Below, piece by piece: positions 36,257 to 53,400 of a DNA stretch of 64,000 bases. Each line of letters starts with the position of its first letter. Position 1 is the first letter of the stretch. The stretch is from an uncultured Gammaproteobacteria bacterium (GTDB taxonomy: Bacteria > Pseudomonadota > Gammaproteobacteria > CAMYKB01). The stretch is from NCBI GenBank assembly GCA_947258875.1, contig CAMYKB010000005.1, positions 52,608-116,607 on the forward strand, given 5' to 3'. The notes under the pieces are model-generated. The model had not been told where the DNA came from, did not search any database, and was given only the letters and a program-made list of their open reading frames with translations. Position numbers and translations under genes: made by a program.

Positions 36257-37006
36257 ATGAGCTGTACATATTGTGAGAAAGAAAGTGCGCGTGTGCAAGC
36301 CTTCAAGTCAATCTGGGCCAACGATATCAATGATGTATTTGCAGATGTTGCCAATTATTACGACCGCATAAATAATTTTGCCAGTCTCGGCTTGCTCAAT
36401 CGTATACGCCAGCAATTTCTCTCCACCATTGAAGTACGACCCGATCACAAAGTTCTTGATGTATGCGCCGGTACAAACGTTATTGGTATCGACTTACTAA
36501 AGAAGCAGCCGGATATCGATGTCTATGCTGTAGACAGAAGCGCCGCGATGCAGGATGTCGGTAGAAACCGCGCAAAACAGCATGGTTTCGAAATCAACGG
36601 TTTTATCTGTGATGTTCACAAATTGCCATTCCCTGATAACTATTTTGATGTGGTAACGCTACAGTATGCGACACGCCACTTGCGTGTGATGGATGTGTTT
36701 TCTGAAATCAACCGAGTACTTAAACCGGGTGGGAATTTTTATCACTGCGATATGCTAAGACCAGCCAACAAAATAATAGAGCATGGTTACTACATATATC
36801 TGAGAGCCAGCCTGGCTTTTCTTTCCTGGGCATTCCGCAGTGGATCGGCAGCCGTGAAGTGTCAGGATTACTTCATTGATGCCATTCGTATGTTTTACTC
36901 GACAGATGAACTCTCAAATCTACTAACGGAATTGGGCTTCGCTGACGTCACTGGTAATTCTGTACTGGGGGGTACCGTGGCATTCCATAAGGCATGCAAG
37001 GTATAG
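36257..37006 (+). CDS. UbiE/COQ5-like class I methyltransferase with N-terminal CxxC
   Basis: A 249-residue SAM-dependent methyltransferase. The SAM loop is VLDVCAGTNVIGIDLL, and the order of later motifs (CDVHKLPFPDNYFDVVTLQYATRHL, EINRVLKPGGNFYHCDM) matches the UbiE/MenG quinone C-methyltransferase family. The glycine-rich loop is atypical (CAGTNV for GGTGD). The N terminus MSCTYCEKESARV carries a CxxC not found in UbiE. The likely substrate is a quinone-like ring or lipid, not proven. AGAAGGAACAG precedes the ATG, and an FNR-like box lies upstream, hinting at low-oxygen expression. No other quinone gene is adjacent. Confidence 0.75.
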   Translation: MSCTYCEKESARVQAFKSIWANDINDVFADVANYYDRINNFASLGLLNRIRQQFLSTIEVRPDHKVLDVCAGTNVIGIDLLKKQPDIDVYAVDRSAAMQDVGRNRAKQHGFEINGFICDVHKLPFPDNYFDVVTLQYATRHLRVMDVFSEINRVLKPGGNFYHCDMLRPANKIIEHGYYIYLRASLAFLSWAFRSGSAAVKCQDYFIDAIRMFYSTDELSNLLTELGFADVTGNSVLGGTVAFHKACKV

Positions 37007-37113
37007 CCTCTTTGTTTGTTTGCGCTAAAAGTACAACCCTCATCACATAGCGCGTATGGCACAACGGCCACTAAATAATAGGTCCAGGAACCCTTAATAA
37101 GATGATTTGACAC

Positions 37114-37476
37114 ATGAATCTGTTCTCATTGGTATCCGCAATATTACTGGTCATACTATTGACCGCGTTTATGATAATGTTGCTTCTCGCAATCATTTTC
37201 AACATGAAAATAGGCGCGAAATACCGAACAGTTCTCGCCAGAAAACTCCATGCATTGCGAATGGGTAGTATGTTGACTGCTCTGGGCATTGATGCCGAGG
37301 TCTACTTGCATAGCATCAAAATCAGCGATATTCACAGGCAAATGGAACGCTGTTCGGCATGTGATAATACAGCCCAGTGCGATGAAAAATTGTCTAATAA
37401 TAATGTTGATAGCGATGATATTGACTTCTGTAGCAACAAGGAATCTTTTAAGAGCATGCTTAACAAAACCATCTAA
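37114..37476 (+). CDS. DUF6455-like single-pass membrane protein
   Basis: A 120-residue protein with one strong N-terminal helix (LVSAILLVILLTAFMIMLLLAIIF) and a cytosolic tail. The tail (MLTALGIDAEVYLHSIKISDIHRQMERCSACDNTAQCDEKL ... DIDFCSNKESFKSML) matches the DUF6455 pattern, with three cysteines in CSACDNTAQC and one in DFCSNK. The cysteines could bind a metal or cluster; that is inference. It lies about 110 bases after the methyltransferase on the same strand, and a structured inverted-repeat region begins right at its stop. Confidence 0.65.
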   Translation: MNLFSLVSAILLVILLTAFMIMLLLAIIFNMKIGAKYRTVLARKLHALRMGSMLTALGIDAEVYLHSIKISDIHRQMERCSACDNTAQCDEKLSNNNVDSDDIDFCSNKESFKSMLNKTI

Positions 37477-37534
37477 AACACAATAGAGTAATACACCGCC
37501 GAAATACTCAGGACACCACATCTCCTATTGTGTT
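37477..37534 (+). repeat. Nested inverted repeat after the DUF6455 gene
   Basis: AACACAATAG (37477-37486) and CTATTGTGTT (37525-37534) are perfect 10-base inverted copies. Inside them GAGTA (37486-37490) pairs with TACTC (37505-37509). The outer arm overlaps the DUF6455 stop region. No T-run follows, so this is not a standard terminator. Confidence 0.6.
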
Positions 37535-37548
37535 ATACCCCACTGAGT

Positions 37549-37580
37549 GACACAGACAACCTTTCGCAAGGTTCTGTGTC
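37549..37580 (+). repeat. Strong hairpin, 13 bp with a bulge
   Basis: GACACAG-AC-AACCTT, loop TCGC, then AAGGTT-CTGTGTC: 7 and 6 base pairs separated by a two-base bulge. It lies 14 bases after the nested repeat and has no T-run, so it may be part of a structured RNA or a DNA site rather than a terminator. Confidence 0.65.
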
Positions 37581-37914
37581 GACATCATGGTTGTAGAATA
37601 TCCAGGATCATGCCAGGCAACAGGTATTTTACTTCTACGGCATGCTAGAGATGGCAGCATGCAAAGATCCGAGGTAGTGCGATTGCCCAATCGAGCAGGC
37701 GCACCGCTCAATACCGGGCTCTATCGTCACAGCCTGCAGACTCATAAAAACGCCATGTGGATATCCACTACACTGCATCTGCAGGCCATACTACATCACC
37801 ACATAATCGGGTAAAATCGCACCCACATATAATAATGATATGCTGCGATAGCATAATAGCTCTTTAAATTTGCCTGCTCGCCAAGAAAAGCCGTATAAAC
37901 ATTCATGATGAATA
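37581..37914. other. 334 bases without a supported gene
   Basis: Short ORFs here (37508-37711 minus, 37587-37814 plus) lack ribosome sites and family resemblance. A GCATGC pair at about 37639-37662 forms a small dyad. A TATAAT lies near 37830, and AT-rich DNA precedes the cyclase gene, so its promoter is probably in the last 100 bases. Confidence 0.4.
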
Positions 37915-40206
37915 ATGAAAAAAATAACCCATATTGATCGGGCCTTGACTGGAAACAATCCGGAGGAGAGGCACCCGCATCGGCTTGCCGCGATCATGTT
38001 CACTGACGTGGTCGGCTATTCGCGCTGGATGAATGAGGACGAGGCACAGGCCATTCGCCTGGTTGAACAACACCGCAAGCAACTGATTCCTCTGATTGAA
38101 GCCCATGGGGGCACGCTGATCGATGCTGTAGGCGACTCCCTGTTTGCCTGTTTCGACAGCGCTATTGAAGCAGCGAGCGCAGCCATCGATATGCAACGGG
38201 CGATGGACCAGTTCAGCCTGAAGCACAACCCGGGCAACCGTCACTTCCAGATCCGTATCGGCATCCATGTAGGCGATATCGTCATAAAGAACAAACGCGC
38301 CTTTGGTGATGGGGTCAACATTGCCGCACGCATTGAACCACTGGCCCGCCCTGGCGGCATATGTGTTACCCAAACCGTATTCGACCTCATCCGCGATAAG
38401 GTGGGGGCAGCTTGCCTGCCTATGGGCCAACGTAATCTGAAAAACATACCGGAACCCGTTAACCTATTCCAGCTCATCCACGAACCCACAGCGATAGAGC
38501 GCTTGGGTGAATCACTACTGAACCGCCTACCTTCGCTGAGCCTCTTACTCAACCATCTTGTGCTAAACCGTAAAGCGCTTAGAAGCGGACTGATTATTGT
38601 TGGCTTAGCATTGGTAATTCCATTGGTATTGCACTATTCGAAAAAGCCAACCATACAGCCTACGACGACACAGTATTACAATATAGAATTGCGTGATTTT
38701 AAAAATCTCAGCGATAGCACCAAGACTTACCTCAGCCAAGGTATTACTGATGTTATCGGCTCTCAATTAACAAACATTCCGCGTCTGTATCTTGTTGGTG
38801 CGCAAATGGCTACTGACGCACCACTGCGCCTTGAAGGTAGCATCCAGCATGACCGGGATCGCCTGCGTATTACGTACCGTCTGGTTCGTAACAAAGACCA
38901 GGTGCAGCTGGGTGCCGGCGTAGTAGATGGGATGACAAGTAACATCTTCAAACTACAGGATAAAGCCGCCAGTAAAATAGCCGCCATGCTGGGAGACATA
39001 CTAAGTATCGAAACAGCACATGCTAGACCTGTTAAACTGACACACGATGTAACGGCCTATGATTATTACCTGCAGGGCCACGGCTACTTAAGACAGCCCA
39101 AAAACCAAGCGACGTTAGCTAACGCGGTCGAGTTATTTACACGCGCCTTGAGTCTGGACCCTGAGTTTGCCCGCGCATACGCCGGACTATGCGTAGCAAA
39201 CGTACAATCTCATATTCTTGGCCACGACCCTGCCTACATCAAACAGGCGGAATCAGACTGCCATCAGGCACTGGGGCTGGATAATAAACTCACCGCGGTA
39301 CACACCGCACTGGGTGAGCTCTATCTAGAGACGGGAAAATATAATGATGCCATTACACATCTTAATAAAGCCATATCCTTCAATCAGAAGGATTTTGATG
39401 CCTACCATTCGTTGGCCTTTGCGTATTCGAAATTGAAGCAGCCGCAGCAAGCCGAAGCCACGTTCCAGAAAGCAATCCAACACCATCCCGGCTACTTCAT
39501 GAATTATCAGATGCTGGGCATATACTTGTTCTATGAAGGCCGTTTACAGGAATCTGCACGGGCTTTTCAAACAACAACCGAGCTAGCGCCTTCCTATGCC
39601 TATGCGCACAGTAATTATGGAGTAACACAATTTCTACTAGGAGATTTCGATCAGGCACTCTCAGCCTATCAAAAATCATTGTCAATTAATAAAAATGAAC
39701 TCGCATACACTAACCTCGCCAAGCTGTATTATTATCAGAGAGATTTCAGCAAGGCCAAAGACCATTATCTCAAGGCACTTGATATCACGCCACGTTATCA
39801 TATTGCTTGGCGCGGCCTCGCTGAAGCATATTCACAACTGGAAAATTCCGTAGAAGAAAGCAAAGATGCTTACATATATGCTTTGAAATATGCAGAGGAG
39901 CGATTAGAGGTTAACGCCCAGGACTCAGAGGCGCTACTGACACTCGCAGCAGCCAGTAGCAAACTTGGAGATACAATAGAGGCCAGCACCGCTATTGCGA
40001 AGCTATTGGCATTGGTACCGGAAGATCCAGAAACTCAGTTTGAGATCGCCCTTATATGGAAAAACATGGGCCAGAAACAACGCTCGCTGAAGGCGCTGGA
40101 GAAGGCTCTCCGGCTGGGATTATCAACTGACCTGTTCAAATTAGCTCCGGATCTGGATGACATCCGAAATGAACCGGGCTTTAGAGCACTACTCGATACC
40201 GGCTAA
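37915..40206 (+). CDS. Class III adenylate/guanylate cyclase with TPR domain
   Basis: A 763-residue protein. Residues ~22-190 form a class III cyclase domain, with metal-binding Asp31 (MFTDVVGYSRWMN) and Asp74 (DAVGDSLFACF) and the segment AFGDGVNIAARIEPLA. A membrane helix follows (SGLIIVGLALVIPLVLHYS, ~223-241), then a FlgO/TolB-like segment (GITDVIGSQLTNIPRLYLVG) and about eight TPRs. This is the layout of rhizobial-type cyclase-TPR proteins. Whether cAMP or cGMP is made is unresolved. The GDS in place of GDG near Asp74 is unusual but keeps the metal ligand. The TPRs would lie across the membrane from the cyclase and may sense a protein partner. Confidence 0.88.
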   Translation: MKKITHIDRALTGNNPEERHPHRLAAIMFTDVVGYSRWMNEDEAQAIRLVEQHRKQLIPLIEAHGGTLIDAVGDSLFACFDSAIEAASAAIDMQRAMDQFSLKHNPGNRHFQIRIGIHVGDIVIKNKRAFGDGVNIAARIEPLARPGGICVTQTVFDLIRDKVGAACLPMGQRNLKNIPEPVNLFQLIHEPTAIERLGESLLNRLPSLSLLLNHLVLNRKALRSGLIIVGLALVIPLVLHYSKKPTIQPTTTQYYNIELRDFKNLSDSTKTYLSQGITDVIGSQLTNIPRLYLVGAQMATDAPLRLEGSIQHDRDRLRITYRLVRNKDQVQLGAGVVDGMTSNIFKLQDKAASKIAAMLGDILSIETAHARPVKLTHDVTAYDYYLQGHGYLRQPKNQATLANAVELFTRALSLDPEFARAYAGLCVANVQSHILGHDPAYIKQAESDCHQALGLDNKLTAVHTALGELYLETGKYNDAITHLNKAISFNQKDFDAYHSLAFAYSKLKQPQQAEATFQKAIQHHPGYFMNYQMLGIYLFYEGRLQESARAFQTTTELAPSYAYAHSNYGVTQFLLGDFDQALSAYQKSLSINKNELAYTNLAKLYYYQRDFSKAKDHYLKALDITPRYHIAWRGLAEAYSQLENSVEESKDAYIYALKYAEERLEVNAQDSEALLTLAAASSKLGDTIEASTAIAKLLALVPEDPETQFEIALIWKNMGQKQRSLKALEKALRLGLSTDLFKLAPDLDDIRNEPGFRALLDTG

Positions 40207-49272: not shown

Positions 49273-49902
49273 TTACAATTTGACCGAGATCACATGAGCG
49301 TCACGCAGATTGATTCCACGATGGGTCGTTGTAACCAGCATACCGCCGTTTGCCAGATGCTCAACCAGCATGTGTTCCAGTAGATCAACAGTCGCCAGAT
49401 CGAGCGCCGTCAATGGCTCATCTAGAATCCACACATGGGCATTCAACAGGCAAAGCTTTGCCAGGGCAACCCGCCGACGTTGCCCGGCAGACATAACACG
49501 GCAAGCAACTTGTGCATGTTCAGCCAGGCCCATGGTGATTAATGCATCTGCAGCTGTGATATTAGTGCGGGGACGCCCCAGTTGCTCTGCGATACGCAGA
49601 TTTTCCAGTGCTGTCAGGTCATCTTTGATACCGACATGATGGCCGATATAGATCAACTCACTGAGGTATTCAGTTCTTTCTTCTTCGATGTTTTGCCCGC
49701 ACCACAGCACCCGCCCCTCGTTCGGCAGGCTTAAACCACACAAAATACGCAGTAAACTCGTCTTGCCACTGCCATTGGCCCCCTCAACCAGCAACGCCTC
49801 TCCGGATTCCAGGGAAAAATTGAGGTTTGAGAACAGCTTACGGTCATTTCGCACACATTCCAGCCCTTCGACCGCGAGGGCTACCTTATTACTTTCAGGC
49901 AT
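49273..49902 (-). CDS. ccmA: Heme exporter ATPase CcmA
   Basis: A 209-residue ATPase of the CcmAB complex and the first gene of the ccm operon. Walker A is GANGSGKTS, signature MSAGQRRRVALAKL, Walker B VWILDEPLTALD. The signature MSAGQ in place of LSGGQ is usual for CcmA. A 7-base dyad lies about 50 bases upstream. Confidence 0.95.
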   Translation of the reverse strand: MPESNKVALAVEGLECVRNDRKLFSNLNFSLESGEALLVEGANGSGKTSLLRILCGLSLPNEGRVLWCGQNIEEERTEYLSELIYIGHHVGIKDDLTALENLRIAEQLGRPRTNITAADALITMGLAEHAQVACRVMSAGQRRRVALAKLCLLNAHVWILDEPLTALDLATVDLLEHMLVEHLANGGMLVTTTHRGINLRDAHVISVKL

Positions 49903-49950
49903 TGCTTATCGGTTGTCCTTTATAGAATCCGCTGTAGGAAATCAGGATAA

Positions 49951-49970
49951 CTATTTGATAACACAAATAG
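49951..49970. promoter_or_regulatory. Operator-like dyad upstream of ccmA
   Basis: CTATTTG-ATAACA-CAAATAG is a perfect 7-base inverted repeat with a 6-base centre, 49-68 bases before the ccmA start. Its spacing fits a dimeric regulator. The regulator is unknown and no family consensus is matched exactly. Confidence 0.4.
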
Positions 49971-50016
49971 AACCAAACTGGCCAAAAAAAGCATCGAACA
50001 TGCCCTTCCAAGCCCC

Positions 50017-50022
50017 TATAAT
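50017..50022 (+). promoter_or_regulatory. TATAAT box before the RNA candidate
   Basis: A perfect TATAAT lies seven bases before the first hairpin of the RNA candidate, where a start near 50029 would be expected. The -35 is poor (TCGAAC at 49994-49999). Confidence 0.5.
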
Positions 50023-50027
50023 ATCAC

Positions 50028-50201
50028 CTGAGGATCCAGATAGGTCTTACCCCCTGTCATCCTCTCAACACAGTGAGCGTGACCAGTGCACCACGTAAAC
50101 AGTGTTGGGCAGAACATATAGCTTCTGCGTTTAGACCATCAATCTAAAAAGTAGTAATCCAAAGTTAAGCGACTGGCGTCTCCCCGTCAGTCGCTTTTTT
50201 T
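50028..50201 (+). ncRNA. Candidate structured non-coding RNA, about 174 nt
   Basis: Five successive hairpins fill an intergenic region with no coding frame. GAGGAT/ATCCTC spans 50030-50064 and has inner CAG/CTG and GGT/ACC pairs. CUCAACAC/GUGUUGGG spans 50064-50109, with one G-U and an inner CGTG/CACG. GCAGAA/TTCTGC spans 50109-50128, and TTTAGA/TCTAAA spans 50130-50148. A 9-bp terminator stem with a T-run follows at 50167-50201. The first two hairpins compete for base 50064. A TATAAT lies just upstream. I do not recognise 6S, tmRNA, 4.5S, RNase P or an RsmY/Z-type RNA. Pairing was found by eye and no covariation test was possible. Confidence 0.6.
50167..50201 (+). terminator. Rho-independent terminator of the RNA candidate
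   Basis: AAGCGACTG and CAGTCGCTT form a perfect 9-bp stem around a 12-base loop, followed by five more T. No coding gene on this strand ends nearby, so it implies a non-coding transcript. Confidence 0.9.
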
Positions 50202-50463
50202 ATGCAAAATCACTCTATTCAATATTTTATCTGTATTTCCCATAATTTACATCTAAGGAACCTCTGATTGACTCCTTCCTTAGGTCCGCAAACAGCGCAT
50301 CCATGCACTACTACTTACGATCAGGCTACCCCGAACCCAGAAGCAATCAGGGGAGCCTCGAATTTGATGCGTACGATTTGATTACCAAATTGACACTGCA
50401 ATGCATGGCCCGTTGTGGGAGAATGCCGCTGCTTGATTCAGCTGTCCTGTGTGCGTACATGTC
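50202..50463. other. 262 bases between the terminator and mfd
   Basis: No supported gene. An ORF at 50303-50521 overlaps the mfd start and lacks family resemblance. The mfd promoter should lie here, but I see no convincing -10/-35 pair. TAAGGAACCTCTGATT at 50254-50269 also occurs at 28076-28091. Confidence 0.4.
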
Positions 50464-53400
50464 ATGCCTGGTACCAATAACATTAAACCGTTACAACCCC
50501 TGCTACCCGACGCAGGCGTAACCTGTATTCAATGGGCGCAGCTCTATGGGTGTAGCCGCGGCCTTGCAATTCATGCTGCATTGGAAGAGCATCGCGGGCT
50601 CATCGTTCTAATTGCCACGGACACCTCAGCAGCTCTGAAGCTCGAACAGGAATTGGGCTTTTTTTCTGCGTCCGATTCACGGCACATATTACATCTCCCG
50701 GACTGGGAAACCTTACCTTACGATATCTTTTCGCCACATGAAGATATCGTTTCCGAACGCCTGCAAACGCTCTACCTCTTACCCAGACTGAAACAGGGTA
50801 TCCTGATCCTTACAACACGCACACTCGCCCAAAGACTGGCGCCACGTGAGTTTCTGAAACAGAACAGCCTGATACTCGACCAGGGCCAGCGTATCGATAT
50901 CGACGAGACCCGCCGTCACCTGGAGCAATCCGGCTATAGCAATGTCTCACAAGTGATGTCGCATGGTGAATTCACCATCCGGGGATCGATTATCGATCTT
51001 TATCCCATGGGTAGCCCGCTCCCCTACCGTATTGATCTGTTTGATGACGAAATTGAGTCGATACGCTGCTTCGATCCTGAGAAACAGACCTCGCTTGAAA
51101 AGATCTCGCAGATACGCCTGCTCCCAGCACATGAATTCCCCACCGATGAATCTGCTATAACGCGGTTTCGCCAGCAACACCGCGTGATTTTCGAGGGGGA
51201 TCCCAACGCCAGCCTGATTTACCGGGAAGTCAGCAAGCGCAGTATGCCCGCCGGTATTGAATATTATATGCCGTTGTTTTTTGAGCAGACCGCCACGCTA
51301 TTTGATTACCTTCCGGACAACACTCTGTTTATACACGCCGGGGATATGCAAGCATCGCTTGAGGAATTTCAGCAGGAAATAAATGAACGCTATGAACAAC
51401 GTCGACATGATGTAGAACGTCCCTTACTGCCGCCGCAATCACTGTTCATTGGCAGTGATGAAATTGAACAGGCAATGCGCATCGCACCCAGGGTGCAGCT
51501 TCAACGTTATGAGATAGAACATCCTGACAGCCGCTCATCGATCAATTACCACACCACTGCCCTGCCAAATCTCACCATCCAGCCCCGTTCAGCGGAGCCT
51601 GCACAAGCTCTTAAAAATTTTATTGCGCAGGAAAATTACCGTGTATTGTTCGTAGCCGAGTCCGCCGGCCGCCGCGAGTATTTACTGGATAGTCTGCGCG
51701 GTTTTGGTATCCGCCCGGTACAAGTCGAGAACTGGCCTGCATTCATTGCCAGCAGTGAAACATTTACCATCACCATCGCTCCGCTTGAAGATGGCGTGTC
51801 TCTTCCGGACGCAAATATTACGATCATCACCGAAAACCAGTTATTTGGTGAACGCGCCGCACAACGTCGGCGCCGCAGTGCGCCAACCCGTGATGCCGAA
51901 TCCATTGTGCGCAACCTTACCGACCTGCACGAAGGTGCGCCGGTGGTCCATGAAGAGCATGGTGTTGGCCGATATATGGGCTTACAGGTTTTGGATGTCG
52001 GCGGTGTGGTGGCTGAATTCCTGATGCTTGAATACGCAGGTGGTGACAAACTGTACGTGCCGGTAGCCTCTTTGCATCTCATCAGCCGTTACACAGGTGC
52101 AAGCCCCGAAAACGCACCGCTGCATAAGCTGGGCAGTGACCAGTGGCAAAGGATTAAGCGCAAGGCGGCTGCCAGGGCACGCGATGTCGCTGCTGAATTA
52201 CTCGAAATTTATGCACGTCGTGCTGCCCGTCAAGGCATACACTTCGAAACCGCGAGCGATGAATACGCAGCCTTCGCTGCGGCCTTCCCCTTTGAGGAAA
52301 CACCCGATCAGCAACAGGCGATCGATGATGTACTTGACGATATGGCGGCCCAGCAACCTATGGATCGCGTGGTCTGTGGCGATGTCGGCTTCGGCAAAAC
52401 TGAGGTTGCCATGCGTGCCGCCTTTGTCGCGAGCCAGAATAATAAACAGGTCGTTGTTCTGGTGCCCACTACTCTGTTGGCACAGCAACATGGGCAAAAC
52501 TTTTCTGACCGTTTTGCCGACTGGCCGATACGTATCGAAATACTGTCACGCTTCGGCAGCACGAAACAGCAACAGGCGGTCATCCAGGACCTGGCAGAGG
52601 GTAAGGTCGATATTGTCATCGGCACCCACAAGCTGCTGCAACCCGCCATCAAATTCCGGGACCTTGGATTGGTCATCGTCGATGAGGAACAGCGTTTCGG
52701 TGTACGCCATAAAGAGCGCCTCAAAGCCATGCGTAGTGAAGTGGACATGCTGACGTTAACGGCGACGCCTATTCCACGCACACTCAATATGTCACTCAGC
52801 GGCTTACGTGATTTATCAATTATTGCTACACCCCCGGATCATCGGCTGGCGATAAAAACATTTGTTGGTCAATGGAATGATGCAACCATCAGCGAAGCCT
52901 GCCAGCGTGAACTCAAGCGCGGCGGCCAGGTGTATTTCCTGCACAACGAAGTCCAGTCTATCGAAAAGATAGCGCATCAAATTCAGCTACTGTTACCCGA
53001 TGCAAGTATCGCCATTGCACATGGGCAGATGCGTGAACGTGACCTGGAACAGGTGATGCTTGATTTTTATCATCAGCGATTCAACATCCTGGTATGCACC
53101 ACCATCATTGAAAGCGGTATCGATGTACCCACCGCCAATACCATTATCATGAACCGAGCCGACAAACTGGGGCTCTCCCAGTTACATCAATTACGTGGGC
53201 GTGTCGGCCGTTCACACCATCGGGCCTATGCCTATTTGATGACACCACCCCAGGGCGCCATGACAGCCGATGCCATCAAGCGCCTTGAAGCCATAGAAGC
53301 ACTTGAGGATCTGGGGGTCGGCTTTACACTTGCAACCCACGACCTGGAAATCCGCGGCGCCGGTGAATTGCTGGGTGAAGGTCAAAGTGGACAAATCCAG

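Follow-up and report, generated by a model that had tools for sequence, protein, structure and literature searches.

Intergenic small RNAs that have been assigned to no family are common in bacteria, and RNAs of this type most likely work in trans, by pairing with mRNAs. In sponges of the CsrB/RsmZ type, the defining feature is the presence of repeated GGA motifs in the loops. The sX13 RNA of Xanthomonas is a highly structured sRNA with its own gene, made of consecutive stem-loops, some of which carry C-rich loops; its loops act on G-rich sites close to start codons and it works without Hfq (PMC3771888).

The element described here comprises a TATAAT box and a 174-base stretch between ccmA and mfd, at positions 50017-50203 (plus strand) of the window, that is, of the whole stretch of 64,000 nucleotides that was analyzed, which belongs to contig CAMYKB010000005.1 of an uncultured Gammaproteobacteria bacterium (assembly GCA_947258875.1). 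The ccm genes lie to its left on the minus strand, with the start of ccmA at 49902, and mfd lies to its right on the plus strand, with its ATG at 50464, 260 nt past the element, the gap between both genes being 49903-50463. We found no literature on a small RNA located between ccmA and mfd. In our view, the element is probably a small RNA gene in its own right, about 174 nt long, whose product would be structured and is predicted to act in trans. The initial annotation had stated that no plus-strand gene ends at this position, and the arrangement of genes and ORFs around 50167-50203 agrees with this: none ends ahead of the terminator found there, which is separate from any coding gene. The interval had also been described as free of ORFs. 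This is true for convincing ORFs, but two mechanical ones exist, one of 136 codons (49688-50098) that runs antisense to ccmA, and a GTG ORF of 24 codons at 50073, the longest internal candidate, which lacks a Shine-Dalgarno sequence. Neither of them resembles a gene.

The predicted transcript spans 50030-50203 on the plus strand, with its start placed 7-8 nt past the -10 box. Folding of 50028-50203 as a single strand gave five consecutive hairpins with a minimum free energy of -58.9 kcal/mol, while shuffled sequences had a mean of -36.05 kcal/mol (sd 3.5) and none of the 200 shuffles was equally stable (z -6.5). The main helices are well determined, with mean pair probabilities of 0.89-1.00. 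Hairpin 1 (50030-50064, plus strand) has 6+6 bp with a one-sided 3-nt bulge and a C-rich apical loop, UCUUACCC (mean pair probability 0.98-0.99). Pairing in this hairpin begins with the predicted start itself, G50030, so that the 5' end of the RNA is closed in the predicted fold. Hairpin 2 (50065-50108, plus strand; 0.95-1.0) has 7+2+5 bp and the loop ACCAGUGCAC, which contains the palindrome GUGCAC at 50086-50091. Hairpins 3 (50109-50128, plus strand; 0.96) and 4 (50130-50148, plus strand; 0.89) have 6 bp each, with the loops CAUAUA and CCAUCAA, respectively. They are followed by an A-rich single-stranded linker, AAGUAGUAAUCCA (50149-50161, plus strand; unpaired probability 0.95), ahead of the terminator, so that the exposed parts are the loops of hairpins 1 to 4, this linker and the terminator loop UCUCCC. 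All the hairpins of the initial annotation were found, but the four complementary pairs listed there (6, up to 8, 6 and 6 bp) under-called hairpins 1 and 2.

The structure signal does not come from the terminator alone, since the fold of 50028-50164, which excludes it, still has a z of -4.4. Furthermore, the plus strand of the interval folds better relative to shuffles than the minus strand (z -6.8 vs -2.9, the latter falling to -1.4 when the terminator part is removed), suggesting that the plus strand is the transcribed one. In a scan of the window with 176-nt tiles on both strands, the most extreme of the 726 tiles was 49985 on the plus strand, which overlaps the element.

Two other structured stretches were observed in the window. 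The second most extreme fold (705-880, z -6.2) is a long hairpin with arms GGAAACCCATACC and GGTATGCGTTTCC in the gap between the ORFs 222-668 and 979-2076. A further one (37665-37840, z -4.7) has a hairpin formed by GCCTGCAGA and TCTGCAGGC and lies in a gap of 900 bp (37006-37915) that contains no long ORFs.

The intrinsic terminator (50167-50203, plus strand) has a stem of 12 bp at 50167-50196, 7 of them G-C, and a T7 tract, with the T-run reaching 50201. The initial annotation had recognized both the hairpin and its T-run, but had given the stem as 9 bp. The stem is nearly perfect (92% complementary) and the T-run is present only on the plus strand. Of 84 terminator-like sites that were listed for 1-60000, this one ranks first when G-C pairs and total pairs are considered together, and no other site in that interval combines 7 G-C pairs, 12 pairs and such a T-run. 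On the other side of the element, the TATAAT box that had been noticed is indeed present at 50017-50022 and is part of a predicted sigma-70 promoter (49994-50022, plus strand; TCGAAC, 17 nt, TATAAT) that a weight matrix of approximate E. coli hexamer frequencies places within the top 0.020% of positions when both strands of the window are ranked. Its -35 box is weak, with 3 of 6 consensus positions, and a strict consensus scan lists no promoter at the element.

As a control for these two signals, the gap (49903-50463) was shuffled 3000 times with its dinucleotides preserved. Of the shuffled gaps, 25% contained a promoter of equal score and 0.03% a terminator of equal quality, and none of the 3000 had a promoter followed by such a terminator. 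For this reason we rest the case on the terminator and the structure, and take the promoter as supporting evidence only. The same figures bear on the idea that the hairpins and the terminator arose in the spacer by chance and that no defined transcript exists. The frequency of equally good promoters in shuffled gaps would fit with it, as would the fact that no conservation has been shown, but a fold of this stability, the rarity of the terminator and the absence of the ordered pair from all shuffles make it very improbable. The separate transcript that the initial annotation had proposed is thus a well-supported prediction, on the basis of the fold, the promoter-like site, the terminator and the shuffles.

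The main rival to a small RNA gene is that the element belongs to the 5' leader of mfd and that its structure and early terminator attenuate read-through in response to some signal. It is upstream of mfd on the same strand, with 260 nt between it and the ATG, and a row of hairpins that ends in a terminator is what attenuator leaders typically show. Moreover, the 5' arm of the terminator can pair weakly upstream when the nascent fold ends in that arm. However, no competing antiterminator of comparable strength is seen, as the fold becomes 17 kcal/mol less stable once the 3' arm is blocked (-41.9 vs -58.9). In addition, mfd likely has a separate promoter (50218-50246, plus strand; TTCAAT, 17 nt, CATAAT, with the -10 at 50241; top 0.19% in the weight-matrix ranking), which sits downstream of the RNA terminator, and a repeat-like insert separates the element from mfd. 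Besides, no comparable common element was found upstream of mfd in 30 relatives, in which the terminator positions are not shared and the nearest of which (G085) has no terminator there. Because no competing antiterminator is seen, and because of the promoter-like site and the insert that lie between the element and mfd, we disfavor the leader and consider it unlikely.

The insert just mentioned is a small stretch at approximately 50254-50358, between the predicted mfd promoter and mfd, whose ends are imperfect inverted repeats, AGGAACCTCTGATTG and CAATCAGGGGAGCCT. Part of it (50255-50300) recurs in the same genome at G000:C33:20216-20261 (89%, locus L003), in a stretch ending in ATCAGAGGTCC, which gives it the appearance of a small repeat that has been inserted, MITE-like and with IS-type ends.

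The element itself is single-copy in the genome and is therefore not a dispersed repeat. Searches at the family and order levels returned only its own genome, which is the sole representative of its order in the collections, and in the nearest sampled family CcmA and Mfd are only around 54% and 68-72% identical, respectively (G085 and G208). A contig search with CcmA yielded only distant ABC-transporter relatives from other phyla and genera. A covariance model built from the single sequence found, among 369 genomes of the class, itself and one match at E = 0.09, which was rejected as noise given that number of genomes. DNA similarity searches in phages, plasmids and E. coli gave no match, the exact terminator and loop patterns were not found in viral contigs, and the three genomes searched from the nearest sampled order gave no match either. 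Regarding the neighborhood, in none of the 29 relatives whose ccmA surroundings were inspected does mfd adjoin within the flanks, and none of the 29 matches the RNA. As small RNAs are usually recognizable only inside a family or order, and the relatives sampled are distant, these negative results are not a strong argument against a function.

The lack of homologs in the genomes of the class, phages, plasmids and E. coli would also be expected from a functionless relic, either a decayed structured RNA or what a mobile element or prophage has left behind with its promoter and terminator, and the adjoining 50255-50300, being a repeat, points in the same direction. Nevertheless, five intact stems and a terminator stem of such complementarity are unexpected in a sequence under decay, and an origin from a mobile element or prophage is opposed by the lack of both a second genomic copy and any phage or plasmid match. 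Given the intact stems and the shuffle results, a relic and mere chance are both less likely, and we regard a relic as quite unlikely.

The DNA search in the 369 genomes of the class returned only two 24-nt matches, both antisense within hisI, in two other genomes (L009 and L010). The matching segment (50073-50096; 22-23 of 24 bases) corresponds to the stem and the loop in hairpin 2, and to the codons HVVYWSRS of hisI. A role of the element as an antisense RNA or a target mimic directed at hisI would find its basis in this match to conserved codons in two genomes. However, the two hisI copies of the organism itself agree at fewer positions (18 and 15 of 24), a single match of this kind is unsurprising by E-values over 369 genomes, and the second one falls on the same conserved codons. 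We have thus rejected the matches, taking them as chance similarity to a run of conserved codons, and a role on hisI seems extremely improbable. As a separate observation, the two hisI copies, which are 75% and 72% identical to the query, are found in two complete-looking hisF/hisI/hisE neighborhoods (L011, G000:C19:58078-58458; L012, G000:C58:930-1310), so that either the his cluster is duplicated or C58 is a stray contig that comes from a different organism.

With respect to known families, Rfam gave no match, neither with the gathering cut-offs over the whole window nor at the locus with E<=5, in agreement with the initial remark that the element resembles no common structured RNA. That remark went further and saw in it something undescribed. 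In a strong sense this is not supported, as nothing points to a conserved class and a lineage-specific small RNA suffices as an explanation; the element is undescribed only in the weak sense of a lineage-specific sRNA candidate without an Rfam family. That it could represent a small RNA family that no known family covers, confined to a poorly sampled order and acting through its tandem loops or through GUGCAC homodimers, is doubtful. Kissing-loop dimers form at self-complementary loop sequences of the GUGCAC type, but we estimate that a palindromic hexamer would occur by chance in these loops about one time in five, and for this reason dimerization through the hairpin 2 loop is only a possibility.

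As read from the sequence, RNA polymerase would start at around 50030 from the TATAAT promoter and transcription would run for about 174 nt until it stops at the strong intrinsic terminator. The product should be almost fully structured, consisting of the five hairpins, a U-tail and the A-rich linker, which is exposed. An RNA of this form would most likely act in trans by pairing with mRNAs via its exposed loops or the linker, a pairing that could take place with or without Hfq, and a chaperone such as Hfq is probably involved. Hfq is encoded in the genome, and the predicted RNA contains both an A-rich linker and a U-tail; the linker at 50149-50161 is possibly a putative Hfq contact. The exposed loops were compared with 52 start regions, those of 51 genes in the window and that of hfq. 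There was no pairing enrichment, and the two C-rich loops paired worse with these regions, a small sample, than with shuffled ones. A C-rich anti-Shine-Dalgarno mode like that of sX13 is thus unsupported by this small sample. This result also counts against a small RNA gene, as do the weak -35 box and the lack of any homolog in the collections searched, and thus of covariation. If transcribed, the element would be a small RNA not described before, from a lineage of which few members have been sampled, and one that is easy to test because its start and its stop are clearly predicted; alone, it would change no general picture.

Several known RNAs share part of this architecture. 6S RNA (RF00013) is also a stand-alone structured RNA of similar length, but its long hairpin with a central bubble is absent from the element; it was rejected as an identity because its covariance model has no match at the locus and the 6S RNA of this genome is located elsewhere (G000:C3:73204-73383, 100 bits). 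A chain of short hairpins with a terminator at the end recalls the CsrB/RsmZ-type sponges; this candidate was rejected as well, since the sole GGA of the element (50032-50034) is paired in a stem and there is no Rfam match. The typical intergenic sRNAs associated with Hfq in gammaproteobacteria resemble the element in having their own promoter (here a predicted one), an intergenic location, a terminator with a U-run and an A-rich linker, whereas their extended unpaired 5' seed is absent here, where the first predicted base is paired. Finally, sX13 has three hairpins instead of five, and it targets G-rich sites at starts, while the C-rich loops of the element, which has no Rfam match, showed no such enrichment among the window genes. 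What sX13 and the element share is a series of stem-loops with C-rich loops, here represented by the CCC in the loops of hairpin 1 and of the terminator.
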